Shown: positions 54,382 through 61,651 of the stretch, in pieces
Layout: the number at the start of each line of letters is the position of its first letter
Numbering within the stretch: the stretch's first letter is position 1
Assembly: GCA_005878835.1 (NCBI GenBank)
Contig: VBMV01000048.1
Coordinates: forward strand, 4,427-68,426
Length of the DNA stretch: 64,000 nucleotides
From: Gammaproteobacteria bacterium
Lineage (GTDB): Bacteria > Pseudomonadota > Gammaproteobacteria > Steroidobacterales > Steroidobacteraceae
Reading direction: 5' to 3'
Translations under genes and position numbers: made by a program
Notes under the pieces: generated by a model
What the model saw: only the letters and a program-made list of their open reading frames with translations
Databases searched by the model: none
Told to the model about the DNA's origin: nothing

Positions 54382-56136
54382 ATGTCCATCACTCTAGACC
54401 AGGTCACCAAGCACTACGCCGGCGCGCCGGTGGTCAACGACGTCTCGCTCGACATCGGTGACGGGGAGTTTTTCGTGCTGCTGGGCCCCAGCGGCAGCGG
54501 CAAGAGCACGCTGCTGCGCGCCATCGCCGGTCTATCCGGTGTCGACCATGGCCGCATCGCACTGCACGGCCGCGACGTCACGCACGTCGCCGCCCGCAAG
54601 CGCGGCGTGGGGCTGGTGTTCCAGAACTACGCGTTGTTCCGCCATATGACGGTGGCAGAGAACATCGAGTTCGCGCTGCGCGTGCGGCACATGCGCGCCG
54701 GGGCGCGCCGGCAGCGTCGCCAGGAGCTGCTGCGCCTGGTGGCGCTCGAGGGCATGGATCAGCGGCTGCCGGCGCAACTCTCCGGCGGCCAGCAGCAGCG
54801 CGTGGCGGTGGCGCGTGCGCTGGCGCACAAGCCCGAGGTGCTGCTGCTCGATGAGCCCTTCGGCGCCCTGGACGCCAAGATCCGCGAGGAGCTGCGCCGC
54901 ACCATCCGCCAGGTGCAGCGCGAGCTCGGGATCACGACCGTGCTCGTGACCCACGACCAGGAGGAAGCCTTCGCGATGGCGGACCGCATCGGGGTCATGA
55001 ATCTCGGGCGGCTCCTGGAGATGGGTGCGCCGCACGACCTGTACTCGCGCCCGGCCACCCGTTTCGTGGCCACCTTCCTCGGCGCGGCCAACCTGATCCT
55101 GGCGCGGCGCACGCCCGATGGCATCCAGATGGGCGCCAACACGGTGGCTGCCGCCGAGCGCTCGGCGGACGTCGACGAGCGCGAGGTGGTCGCAGTCGTG
55201 CGCCCGGAGGAAGTGGAGGTTGCCGCGTCGCGCGAGGCCCTGAGCTCCGGCTACCTCGCGCGCGGGGTGGTGGCCGAGGTGGTGTTCACGGGGGCGCTCG
55301 AGAGCCTGCGCGTGCGCCTCGAGAATGGTGTGCAGGCCCCGCTGCTCGCGCAGCCGGACGGCGCTGCCGGCGCGTCGCTCCTGGTGACGCGCACGCAGCA
55401 CGAGCAGCGCGGCTTCGAGATCCACCCCGGTCAGGACGTCGCCATCGGCGTGCGCCGCGTGCACGTTCTGCCTACACCGCTGTCGAGCTTCACCGCCTGT
55501 GCCGCGAGCCCCGCGCTCGCAGATGCGCTCAGCCGGCAGCCGCTGCTCGCGGAGCTGGCCGTGCGCATGAAGACGCGCATCGCCATGCGCGCCGAGCCGC
55601 AGCTGGGCGTGCCGGAGGCGGCGTGCGCGGCGGACGGCCCGTTCGTGGGCACCACCGCGCTCGCTTCGCAAGCGGACTGCGCGCACCGGGCCGAGTGGCT
55701 GTTGCGGCGCGGCGCGCAGGACCTGCTGGTGCTGCCGGAACATGCGGCGGTACCGCAGCGCGTGCTGATTCACTGGATGGGTGAAGGCTCGCGCAGTGCC
55801 ACGCTGGCGGTGTCGGCGAGCGTGCTGCGCCACCTGTCCGCCGAAGCCGTCTACGTGGGTATCTTCCCCCAGCAGAGCGCCCGCGTGCGCGCGCAGCACG
55901 GCATGCGCGACCTGCTCGATGCGCGTTCGGAGGCGCAGCTGGCCCACGGCCTGGAGATGCGCACCGAGCTGCGCTTCGGCGACGTCGCGCAGGAGCTGGC
56001 GCTGCGGCTGGCGGAGGCTCCCGCACAGATGCTGATCGTGGGCGTCACGGAGCTCACACGCTTCGCCGAGCGCTTCCGCGGACTGCTCGACGGCGGGCAG
56101 TGGCCGATGCTGATCGTGTACCGCGGTTCGCCATGA
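54382..56136 (+). CDS. cysA: Sulfate ABC transporter ATPase CysA fused to a universal-stress-protein-like tail
   Basis: 584 aa, against about 350-365 for usual CysA. Residues 1-240: ABC ATPase with Walker A G-P-S-G-S-G-K-S-T (35-43), signature L-S-G-G-Q-Q-Q (133 on), L-L-L-D-E-P-F-G-A-L-D and the H-loop T-H-D-Q. Residues 240-362: TOBE-like regulatory region. Residues 363-584: an extra domain whose last 125 residues fold like a USP (V-L-I-H-W-M, then Q-M-L-I-V-G-V-T-E-L-T-R-F-A-E-R-F, then W-P-M-L-I-V-Y-R) but lack the usual G-x-x-G-x9-G-S ATP loop. Drives sulfate import with CysTW; the tail may sense a signal or bind a partner. Confidence 0.9.
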   Translation: MSITLDQVTKHYAGAPVVNDVSLDIGDGEFFVLLGPSGSGKSTLLRAIAGLSGVDHGRIALHGRDVTHVAARKRGVGLVFQNYALFRHMTVAENIEFALRVRHMRAGARRQRRQELLRLVALEGMDQRLPAQLSGGQQQRVAVARALAHKPEVLLLDEPFGALDAKIREELRRTIRQVQRELGITTVLVTHDQEEAFAMADRIGVMNLGRLLEMGAPHDLYSRPATRFVATFLGAANLILARRTPDGIQMGANTVAAAERSADVDEREVVAVVRPEEVEVAASREALSSGYLARGVVAEVVFTGALESLRVRLENGVQAPLLAQPDGAAGASLLVTRTQHEQRGFEIHPGQDVAIGVRRVHVLPTPLSSFTACAASPALADALSRQPLLAELAVRMKTRIAMRAEPQLGVPEAACAADGPFVGTTALASQADCAHRAEWLLRRGAQDLLVLPEHAAVPQRVLIHWMGEGSRSATLAVSASVLRHLSAEAVYVGIFPQQSARVRAQHGMRDLLDARSEAQLAHGLEMRTELRFGDVAQELALRLAEAPAQMLIVGVTELTRFAERFRGLLDGGQWPMLIVYRGSP

Positions 56137-56969
56137 GCTTCCGCCAGCCCAGCGTGCTGCCCGGGTTCGGCCTGACTTTCGGCTTCACCACGTTCTTCCT
56201 CAGCGCCATCGTGCTGCTGCCACTTGCCGCGCTGGCGCTGGCCGCCGCCTCCCTGCACTGGAGCGACTTCGTGCACGTGGTCTTGAGTCCGCGGGCGCTC
56301 GGCTCCTACCGCCTGTCCTTCGGCGCCTCGTTCCTCGCCGCGGCGATCAATCTGGTGTTCGGCCTCATCATCGCCTGGACGCTGGTGCGCTACGAATTCC
56401 CGGGCAGAGGGCTCATCGACGCGCTCATCGACATGCCCTTCGCGCTGCCCACGGCGGTCTCAGGTATCGCGCTCACCACGGTGTTTGCGCACAACGGCTG
56501 GATCGGGCGCTACCTGGAGCCCTGGGGCGTGAAAGTCGCGTACACCTGGGTGGGCGTGACCCTCGCGCTGACCCTGATCAGCATGCCGTTCGCGGTGCGC
56601 GCCGTGCAGCCGGCGCTGCTGGAGGTGCAGCGTGATCTGGAGGAGGCGGCGGAGACCCTGGGTGCGGGCCGTATCTACGTCTTCCGCCGCATCATCCTGC
56701 CGGCGGTGCTGCCCGCGCTCCTGACCGGCTTCACGCTGGCGTTCGCGCGCGCCCTCGGGGAGTACGGCTCGGTCATTTTCATCGCCGGCAACCTGCCGAT
56801 GAAGACCGAGATCACCCCGCTCCTCATCGTCATCCATCTCGAGGAGTTCGACTACCACGGCGCCGCGGCCCTGGGGGTGGTGATGCTCGGCATCTCCTTC
56901 GTCGTGCTGCTCGCCATCAACCTGCTGCAGGCGTGGGGGCGCCGCCGGCACGTCAGGGCGGCTCACTGA
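56133..56969 (+). CDS. cysT: Sulfate ABC transporter permease CysT
   Basis: 278 aa from ATG 56133, overlapping the cysA stop (ATGA). Six helices and the EAA loop (E-A-A-E-T-L-G-A-G-R-I-Y-V-F-R-R-I-I-L-P) that docks CysA. Typical D-M-P-F-A-L-P-T-A-V-S-G-I-A-L and F-A-R-A-L-G-E-Y-G-S-V-I-F-I-A-G-N. Confidence 0.95.
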   Translation: MSFRQPSVLPGFGLTFGFTTFFLSAIVLLPLAALALAAASLHWSDFVHVVLSPRALGSYRLSFGASFLAAAINLVFGLIIAWTLVRYEFPGRGLIDALIDMPFALPTAVSGIALTTVFAHNGWIGRYLEPWGVKVAYTWVGVTLALTLISMPFAVRAVQPALLEVQRDLEEAAETLGAGRIYVFRRIILPAVLPALLTGFTLAFARALGEYGSVIFIAGNLPMKTEITPLLIVIHLEEFDYHGAAALGVVMLGISFVVLLAINLLQAWGRRRHVRAAH

Positions 56970-59943: not shown

Positions 59944-60611
59944 AAGTCCTGGTGGCGGACGATGACGGGGATCTGCGCGATCTCATTGGCTTCACCCTGA
60001 CGCAATCGGGTTATCTCGTCCTCAAGGCGGGCGACGGACCCTCCGCCGTGCGTCGCTTCGAGGAGGAGTCCCCGGACCTGGTGGTGCTCGACATCAACAT
60101 GCCGGGCCTGTCCGGTTTTCAGGTCTGCGAGGCGATCCGCAAGCGCTCGCGCATCCCGGTGATGATGCTGACCGTGCGCGGCGAGGAGGAGGATCTGGTG
60201 CGCGCGCTGGAGCTCGGCGCCGATGACTACCTCACCAAGCCGTTCAGCCCGCGCACGCTGCTCGCGCGCGTCAAGGCGCTGCTGCGCCGGGCGGGAATGG
60301 AAAATACCGCCCCGCTGGCCGCCGGACGCGTGGCCCTCGATCTGCAGGAGCACACCGTGAGCATCGGCCGCGCCGAGCCGGTGCGCCTCACGAAGCTCGA
60401 GCTGCGGCTGCTGCAGATGCTGCTCGCCAATGCCGGCCACACGGTGAGCTCCGATCGGCTGCTGGCGCAGGTGTGGGGGCATCGCAGCGGCGGTGACCGG
60501 CAGCTCCTCAAGCAGCTGGTGCACCGGCTGCGGCAGAAGATCGAGGCCGATCCGGCGGCGCCCGCGCTGCTGCGCACCGCCGCGGCCGGCTACAAGCTGC
60601 TGGTCGAGTGA
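59940..60611 (+). CDS. OmpR/PhoB-type response regulator
   Basis: 223 aa from ATG 59940 (ATGA overlap with the kinase). Receiver with acidic D7-D8-D9, phospho-acceptor Asp51 in V-V-L-D-I-N-M-P-G and K-P-F; C-terminal winged helix ([34 protein letters not shown]). Expected to bind tandem repeats such as those before cysA. Its 3' end overlaps the convergent sulfate-binding-protein gene by 22 nt. Confidence 0.95.
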
Positions 60612-61651
60612 TCTGCCGAGATCTGATCGAACACGCCGTCATCGCTGAAGTGCGTGCGCTGTACCTGCGCCCAGCCGCCAAAGTCGGCGATGGTGGCGAG
60701 CTTCAGTGGCGGGAAGCGCGCCGCATGGCGTGCGGCGACCTCGGGATCGCGCGGCCGGTAGCCGTGGCGCGCGATGATCTCCTGCCCTTCCTGGCTGTAC
60801 AGGTACCTGAGGTAGGCCATCGCCACCTCGCGCGTCCCGCGCCGCAAGGCCACCTTGTCCACCACCGCCACCGGCGGCTCGGCGAGAATGCTCACCGAGG
60901 GCATGACGATCTGCAGCTGGTCCGCGCCGAGCTCGCGCACAGCGAGCAGCGCCTCGTTCTCCCAGGTCACCAGCACATCCCCGAGTCCGCGCTGCACGAA
61001 CGTGGTCGTCGAGCCGCGAGCGCCGGTGTCGAGCACCGGGACGTTCTGGTAGAGCCGGCGCACGAACTGCCGCGCGCTCGCCTCGTCGCCCCCCGGCTGC
61101 GCGCGCGCCCAGGCCCAGGCGGCCAGATAGTTCCAGCGGGCGCCGCCGGAGGTCTTTGGGTTGGGCGTGATGACCGCCACGCCGGGGCGCACGAGATCGC
61201 CCCAGTCGTGAATTGCCTTCGGGTTGCCGTTGCGGACCAGGAAGACGATGGTGGAGGTATAGGGCGAGCTGTTATCCGGCAGCAGCGTCTGCCAGTTCAG
61301 CGGCAGCAGCTTCGCGTCAGCGGCGATCGCATCGATGTCGGCTGCCAGCGCGAGCGTCACCACGTCCGCGGCGAGCCCATCGATCACCGAGCGCGCCTGC
61401 TTGCCCGAGCCCCCGTGTGACTGATCGACACGCACGTCCTGGCCGCGGTGCGCTTTCCAGTACCTGGCAAAGGCCGCGTTGAAATCCACGTACAGCTCGC
61501 GTGTGGGGTCGTAGGACACATTCAGCAGCGTCACGCGAGCCGCATGCGCAGACCCGGACCCACCCTGGCAGGACGCGAGCAGGACGGCGAGCGCGAGCAC
61601 ACACAGCGCGGCACCGAGGGCCGCGCGCCGCCACCGCAATGCTGCTGCCAT
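60590..61651 (-). CDS. sbp: Sulfate-binding lipoprotein
   Basis: 353 aa. Lipobox L-L-A-S-C (Cys28), so anchored rather than free in the periplasm. Sulfate-family sequence is clear: [51 protein letters not shown]. Delivers sulfate (or thiosulfate) to CysTWA. Convergent with the response regulator gene; same strand as lipB, 46 nt downstream. Confidence 0.95.

Follow-up and report, generated by a model that had tools for sequence, protein, structure and literature searches.

A sulfate importer operon of Steroidobacteraceae with its own kinase-regulator pair: a candidate transporter-coupled regulon

Textbooks present the uptake of phosphate (PhoR-PhoB) and of potassium (KdpDE) as classic examples of two-component control and assign proteobacterial sulfate uptake to CysB, with cysTWA, sbp and cysH as targets of CysB/Cbl. 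Here we describe a locus in which the genes of a sulfate importer, cysA, cysT and cysW, form a single operon with genes for a histidine kinase (HK) and an OmpR/PhoB-type response regulator (RR), next to the gene of the periplasmic sulfate-binding protein, sbp. The locus lies in a 64,000-nt stretch of a gammaproteobacterium of the family Steroidobacteraceae (assembly GCA_005878835.1, contig VBMV01000048.1, positions 4427-68426), which we refer to as the window and whose genome carries the handle G000. We propose, with a probability of roughly 0.7, that this is a transporter-coupled sulfate-import regulon of the Pst-PhoU-PhoR-PhoB kind, placed under its own two-component system.

The locus resembles the Pst-PhoU-PhoR-PhoB system in combining a high-affinity oxyanion importer of the ATP-binding cassette (ABC) type with a PAS-containing kinase, an OmpR/PhoB-type regulator and repeats upstream of the -10 box, and in a predicted regulon that holds the binding protein and, in one relative studied here, an OprP-type porin. 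It differs in its sulfate genes, in a locus without PhoU, in an ATPase that carries a predicted tandem universal-stress-protein (USP) domain and in the large dCache-like periplasmic domain of its kinase. BceAB-BceRS modules serve an antimicrobial-peptide transporter, have a kinase architecture other than that of the window HK and are not known to contain a USP-fused ATPase, and LuxP-LuxQ handles a quorum signal with a hybrid kinase and is not known to include an ABC importer operon. In the passages of a 2015 review that concern inorganic phosphate (Pi) sensing (PMC4415409), the process is said to require PhoR-PhoB, PstSCAB and PhoU, PhoR is described as having no significant periplasmic domain, a paper on the interaction of PhoU with PhoR and PstB is listed, and the component that senses Pi scarcity is called 'still unknown'. 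Passages of PMC8534201 report that ABC transporter activity controls the partner kinase in the BceAB-BceRS flux-sensing modules, which is the direction of signalling that we propose here, that LuxQ senses through a binding protein, that the USP domain of S. aureus KdpD binds c-di-AMP, and that BvgS is modulated by sulfate ions, the last with no link to uptake in those passages. KdpD/KdpFABC shares with our locus a USP fold in the two-component control of a transporter operon, although there the USP is part of the kinase and here it sits on the ATPase. For sulfur acclimation in Synechocystis, the relevant passage of PMC2491639 merely suggests two-component mediation. In the open-access literature we found neither a two-component system controlling a sulfate uptake operon nor a USP-fused CysA, subscription papers being mostly outside this search.

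The initial annotation described cysA, cysT, cysW, HK and a PhoB-type RR as one tightly packed operon with sbp convergent, and the coordinates of the open reading frames (ORFs) bear this out. cysA and cysT overlap by 4 nt (ATGA), cysT and cysW by 1 nt (TGATG), the gap between cysW and HK is 5 nt, and HK and RR again overlap by 4 nt (ATGA). The 3′ part of sbp overlaps the 3′ end of RR by 22 nt, which goes beyond mere convergence. CysT (TIGR02139, 384 bits against a cut-off of 246), CysW (TIGR02140, 390 against 329) and Sbp (TIGR00971, 453 against 156; NF008022, 490 against 288) all score above curated cut-offs. The ATPase misses those of the CysA models (TIGR00968, 317 against 343 bits; NF008105, 310 against 502), and its name is therefore taken from synteny.

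A genome-neighbourhood search for cysATW beside HisKA/OmpR pairs had been suggested as a check on that annotation, and we found the neighbourhood conserved in relatives. HK is present in 46 of 150 genomes of the family (E ≤ 1e-60) and cysT in 67, all 46 HK genomes among them. Both genes lie on one contig in 43 of the 46, with a gap of 810-1409 bp that is occupied by cysW in every locus read; the remaining three (G096, G112 and G068) have a partial HK match and cysT on a separate contig. Within the window's genus, 14 genomes are listed for both genes, five with both and nine with neither. We also scanned named loci, keeping the best 80, so that the spread across phyla given here is a lower bound. 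Among these, the 21 closest (L101-L121, some of them from the same genomes as the G handles) all have an RR adjoining HK, and at least one cys or sbp gene is visible in 18; L112, L114 and L115 have HK-RR with no cys or sbp gene in view, the HK of L114 being near a contig start. Gene order varies among loci while content is kept: sbp may be inside, convergent or divergent, and HK-RR comes first in locus L122.

The second feature that sets the locus apart is the ATPase itself, which continues for ~225 residues past the usual ABC and TOBE parts. An AlphaFold2 model of this extension (predicted local distance difference test, pLDDT, 89; predicted template-modeling score, pTM, 0.88) was searched with Foldseek, and its best PDB matches were the tandem USPs UspE and TTHA0350. 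The top seven matches are all tandem-length universal stress proteins (E 5e-7 to 2e-5); lower ones are photolyases and the regulatory domains of the NKCC1 and KCC transporters. Because the template-modeling (TM) scores against the USP matches are moderate (0.48-0.64) and the window sequence scores 14.3 bits against the Pfam Usp cut-off of 24, we call the extension a predicted, diverged tandem USP fold. Four other extensions were scored with the same Pfam model: those of L122 (25.5 bits) and L116 (33.2) are over the cut-off, and L108 and L107 gave no Usp match.

Extension and kinase occur together. In loci with HK, CysA has 573-650 aa, except in L086 (450 aa, at a contig end), and in loci without HK it is short, 351-397 aa where complete and adjacent; the exception is L072, an open frame of 652 aa that matches residues 1-324 only. 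Across the same 296 genomes of the order, HK was found in 36, the extension in 37 and both in 34 (Fisher p = 1e-38, a figure that relatedness overstates). HK stands without the extension in G610 and G676. The reverse is seen in G008, where the locus is broken by stops and frame breaks, in G036, where the CysT match lies at a contig start, and in G655, a weak partial match. The G008 locus (L078, 4555-9018) is a decaying long-CysA locus in which cysA, cysW and sbp are interrupted and neither HK nor RR was found in the stretch, and its parts seem to have been lost together.

Phylogenies separate the history of the ATPase from that of the permeases. In a tree of the ATPase N-terminal domain (without the partial L086 and L073), a branch with 100/100 support divides 12 short ATPases from 40 rows linked to HK, which are joined by two long ATPases whose contigs stop short of HK. 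In the CysT tree, by contrast, one HK+ genus, represented by 8 rows from 7 genomes (L081-L087 plus L110, a second copy of one of them), groups with the HK-less permeases across a 100/99 branch, and L116 does likewise. The CysW tree (without L069 and L070) also places five rows of this genus, from four genomes, with HK-less permeases, and the CysW of L081 is alone; rows with a stop or less than 70% coverage were left out of both permease trees. As judged from these trees, it is the USP-type ATPase, not the permease, that stays with HK-RR across permease exchange.

The initial annotation took the packing of the genes as a sign of one regulatory unit, and this view gains support from a conserved OmpR/PhoB-type box that stands ahead of cysA and, for most members of the window's genus, also ahead of sbp (Table 1). 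Upstream of cysA, 39 HK-type loci share a footprint in which 11-bp units (TTGTAACC-like) are repeated in tandem ahead of a TAGCAT-like -10 box; the set had been cut from 42 by removing L081, in which cysA comes directly after sbp, and two near-duplicates. Single scores range from 11.6 (L080) to 60.3 bits, and a relaxed unit pair 11 bp apart occurs in 31 of the 39 regions, against an expected 0.1%. A box model learned from these regions, the window's among them, reached a log-likelihood of 655 (40 starts), compared with 106-119 in 12 shuffled sets (25 starts). When the window was scanned with this model, the cysA promoter scored 30.8 and 28.4 bits, the sbp promoter, which was outside the training set, 20.7, and position 4298, ~660 nt ahead of the next large ORF, 17.6, with the rest at or below 6.5. 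When the eight rows assigned to the window's genus were left out of training, the cysA and sbp boxes were still found, and none of 2000 shuffles scored as high. Among 20 HK-type loci with a separate sbp, the sbp box reaches the lowest attainable p (0.003) in seven, and none of 16 HK-less sbp regions scores above 5.2 bits. In the window and likewise in several genus mates, the predicted -10 boxes stop 6-7 nt short of the cysA and sbp starts (54369-54382 and 61651-61663); by this spacing, both mRNAs may be leaderless or nearly so. The lipB stop codon (61698) falls inside the first repeat of the sbp box.

Table 1. Genes, domain and predicted promoter elements of the locus, in window coordinates
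Feature	Position	Strand	Basis or remark
Predicted RR box of the cysA operon: CTGTAAC, TTGTCAC, CCGTTAC and a weaker fourth unit, in 11-bp steps	54306..54349	+	Top-scoring stretch of the window
Predicted -10 box TAGCAT, 7 nt before the cysA ATG	54369..54374	+	Read from sequence; same register in the footprint
cysA: sulfate-type ABC ATPase, 584 aa, ABC + TOBE-like + C-terminal extension	54382..56136	+	Below curated CysA cut-offs
CysA C-terminal extension, residues 360-584: predicted diverged tandem USP domain	55459..56133	+	AlphaFold2 and Foldseek
cysT: sulfate permease subunit	56133..56969	+	TIGR02139, over cut-off
cysW: sulfate permease subunit	56969..57835	+	TIGR02140, over cut-off
HK: histidine kinase, 700 aa	57841..59943	+	Pfam, alignment, structure model, fold search
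RR: OmpR/PhoB-type response regulator, 223 aa	59940..60611	+	Not PhoB by curated cut-off
sbp: periplasmic sulfate-binding protein	60590..61651	-	Passes the TIGR00971 and NF008022 cut-offs
TAGCAT, predicted -10 box of sbp, 6 nt ahead of the ATG	61658..61663	-	Read from sequence
Predicted RR box of sbp: TTGTAAC, CTGCGAC, 11-bp spacing	61682..61714	-	Best minus-strand match of the window, 20.7 bits

Matches to the box elsewhere point to a candidate regulon. A two-unit pattern gave six matches in the window's own genome, against two for a reversed control; two of the six are the cysA box, and another precedes cysH-cysG-cysK-modB and a modC-like ORF, divergent from cysB. Among ten HK+ regions with cysH divergent from cysB, the box is directed towards cysH in four (G000, G054, G069 and G091; 15.5-20.0 bits), and the pattern located a further cysH box (18.7 bits) in the HK+ genus mate G726. 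G018 and G038, genus mates without HK, and G029, also HK-less, share the cysH-cysB arrangement, but no cysH box was found in them. G573 has a match of 11.1 bits upstream of cysB, with no cysH alongside. In G017, a 37.4-bit box stands ahead of a second sbp on a contig separate from cysA, with a 19.7-bit box in the opposite direction, towards a TonB receptor, and G721 carries boxes ahead of sbp (34.3 bits) and of a Porin_O_P (OprP-type porin) protein (29.7 bits). The HK of L112 is divergent from an ORF that by eye is TonB-receptor-like and is preceded by a 23.3-bit box. A simple 18-bp pattern proved too loose, with 109 matches against 64 for the reversed control in 13 HK+ genomes and 13 against 8 in five HK- genomes, and many further pattern matches look like chance. 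In the window's own cysH operon (L245, 1460-3455), the genes after cysK are modB, a molybdate-type permease over its cut-off, and the modC-like ORF, an ATPase identified by eye.

Beyond the order, the module seems rare, to judge by sequence searches: a phylum-wide search for the extension (398 genomes, one genome per species, E ≤ 1e-6) returned the window's genome only. L122, from the Chloroflexota metagenome-assembled genome (MAG) Anaerolineaceae bacterium 46_22, has the order HK-RR-CysA(633 aa)-Sbp-CysT-CysW; since its proteins are only 27-44% identical to those of the window, it is not contamination from the window's family. L116, whose extension passes the Pfam Usp cut-off, comes from a MAG labelled Acidobacteria. 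The Anaerolineae genome G762, which is also that of L123, has HK-RR with a 30.0-bit box and, ~15 kb away along that contig, a USP-type ATPase. This ATPase is preceded by an Sbp-like protein and a single permease and followed by a different HK and RR on the opposite strand; no box was found at the USP-ATPase stretch, where the best match is 7.6 bits. The 30.0-bit box (L123, 10826-10890) lies downstream of the Chloroflexota HK-RR with no ORF of at least 180 aa for ~400 bp, and its target may be a small gene or RNA. The importer with the USP-extended ATPase, the single permease and the Sbp-like protein (L304, 3979-9732), which other two-component genes adjoin, is possibly of the molybdate or tungstate type with similar wiring.

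Our reading is built on the operon, its conservation, the predicted USP fold, the conserved promoter repeats and the finding that USP-type CysA is inherited with HK-RR even where the permeases were exchanged, all of them features of sequence; from these we infer binding of RR to the repeats, the polarity of the signal and a contact between USP and HK. Given the PhoR-like plan, the box and the genes behind it, RR would activate sulfur-uptake genes, and the target genes suggest low sulfate as the inducing condition. HK, as the initial annotation had it, would sense sulfate or transport. Low sulfate import would lead the kinase to phosphorylate RR, which would then bind the tandem 11-bp repeats that overlap the -35 region or immediately precede it. 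Phosphorylated RR would activate cysA-cysT-cysW-HK-RR, creating positive feedback, together with sbp and the cysH-cysG-cysK operon and, in some relatives, the second sbp, the OprP-type porin and the TonB receptor. Because the USP-type ATPase is co-inherited with HK-RR, we suggest that it is the transport-side partner, as Pst/PhoU is for PhoR: under sufficient import, the tandem USP on CysA would report the ATPase state and the kinase would be switched off. The dCache-like periplasmic domain may provide a second input, from Sbp or a ligand, as in LuxP-LuxQ.

A broader proposal, for which we put the odds a little below even, is that the locus represents a class of importer-coupled signalling that is new with respect to the literature searched. 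In it, a tandem-USP ABC ATPase would report transport status to a partner kinase; the class would be used for sulfate in Steroidobacteraceae, their relatives and Chloroflexota, and the ATPase-kinase-regulator unit would fit different permeases, as in the exchange within one genus and in the one-permease importer of G762. Set against known systems, the locus would encode a regulon like those of Pho or Kdp, run by a two-component system and coupled to its transporter, now for sulfate and with a USP-fused ATPase. A regulon in which sulfate uptake has a kinase and a box of its own, and in which the sensor domain sits on the transporter, would be to sulfur what Pho is to phosphate. The system would then offer a way to examine directly how a kinase learns that its importer is at work, a question called open for Pho in the passage of PMC4415409 cited above, with a candidate messenger that is fused to the ATPase and removable in one step.

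Several observations weigh against a transporter-coupled sulfate regulon. Orphan HK-RR pairs occur without cysTWA in G610 and G676 (L115), where the cysT-like match is weak in both genomes (32%), and the pair can therefore work without the cysTWA transporter. The window's own extension stays under the Pfam Usp cut-off. No sbp box was seen in 13 of the 20 HK-type loci with a separate sbp, one of which, G721, had an upstream region too short and does carry the sbp box listed above, and none in G069 (L292); conversely, two of the 16 HK-less sbp regions reach p 0.010-0.013, at 2.3-5.2 bits. Under the strict model the box in Chloroflexota is weak (62 of 2000 shuffles score at least as well), although none of 20,000 shuffles reached its exact 11-bp pair. 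The cysH box is limited to the window's genus and missing from G145, which is HK+ and has cysH divergent from cysB, and in G003, G044 and G074 the match points to cysB instead (8.7-20.2 bits). Among nine HK-less cysB regions, G083 has p = 0.005 towards cysB. The two-unit pattern alone is non-selective genome-wide, and 10 of 16 regions checked afterwards had nothing of at least 10 bits.

The kinase itself suggests two other inputs. Its order is transmembrane helix, periplasmic dCache-like domain, transmembrane helix, HAMP, PAS, HisKA and HATPase_c, the two helices being assigned from sequence and model; the HisKA, HATPase_c, receiver and winged-helix domains of HK and RR are over Pfam cut-offs. 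In the model of the HK N-terminus (pLDDT 85), the top PDB match of the periplasmic domain is that of LuxQ, in which lies the likeness to LuxP-LuxQ, followed mainly by dCache-type chemoreceptor and kinase domains. These matches fit a kinase that reads periplasmic sulfate only, directly through this domain or by way of Sbp in LuxP-LuxQ style, with the USP serving otherwise, for instance in ATPase inhibition or nucleotide binding, and the presence of the box at sbp in most of the genus agrees with it. We consider this unlikely, as it is the USP-type ATPase and not the permease that remains with HK-RR, and the place and orientation of sbp vary between loci. A second RR, 52% identical to the window type, lies ~1.5 kb downstream of RR in Steroidobacter agaridevorans (L108, 14308-14979) and likewise in G074 (L100, 13019-13690).

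The PAS domain carries three cysteines, C399, C414 and C418, that are invariant in 24 of 24 aligned kinases (the alignments exclude L081 and L119, which have a stop or frame break, and L121 is an intact N-terminal piece only). HK-RR could respond to internal sulfur or redox state through this domain, with the operon as just one target, and the orphan pairs without a transporter would be expected. The Chloroflexota kinase L122, however, lacks all three cysteines despite the same gene content, and co-inheritance with the USP-type ATPase would be left unexplained, which makes this alternative improbable.

We regard it as very improbable that the linkage is only a neighbourhood inherited by descent, with no functional tie between its members. 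Nearly all cases come from one order and are hence non-independent, but gene order differs between loci of the same content, HK and cysT are present or absent jointly within one genus, and the box is common to sulfur genes located elsewhere. It is hardly credible that the pair is a PhoR-PhoB system for phosphate located next to a sulfate importer: its architecture and repeats resemble PhoR/PhoB and Pho boxes, but HK (TIGR02966, 142 against 334 bits) and RR (TIGR02154, 180 against 296) fall far short of the PhoR and PhoB cut-offs, two true PhoB proteins are encoded elsewhere in the window's genome, and the predicted targets are sulfur genes. No Pfam match to PhoU was found among the six locus proteins, the rest of the genome not having been searched for it. 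L172 was set aside as, by eye, an ordinary phoRB-pst-phoU cluster.

The transporter-coupled circuit that we favor does not stand in for CysB. The window's genome encodes a CysB that shares 54% identity with E. coli CysB and passes the CysB equivalog cut-off, and a CysB-like match (E ≤ 1e-20) was obtained in 30 of 31 genomes, with HK and without; the exception is HK-less G021. We reject replacement of CysB by HK-RR, since CysB is retained in HK+ genomes, and the HK-RR circuit is therefore added to LysR control and not a substitute for it. The initial annotation had set a kinase-regulator pair against LysR-type control by CysB/Cbl; the link of HK-RR to the operon holds, and the exclusion of CysB does not. 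The predicted target genes coincide with those of CysB/Cbl, with a two-component system on top, and the importer and cysH may answer to both regulators. In the HK-less genomes G097 and G116, cysB itself lies ~1.3 kb from cysT, with sbp between them.

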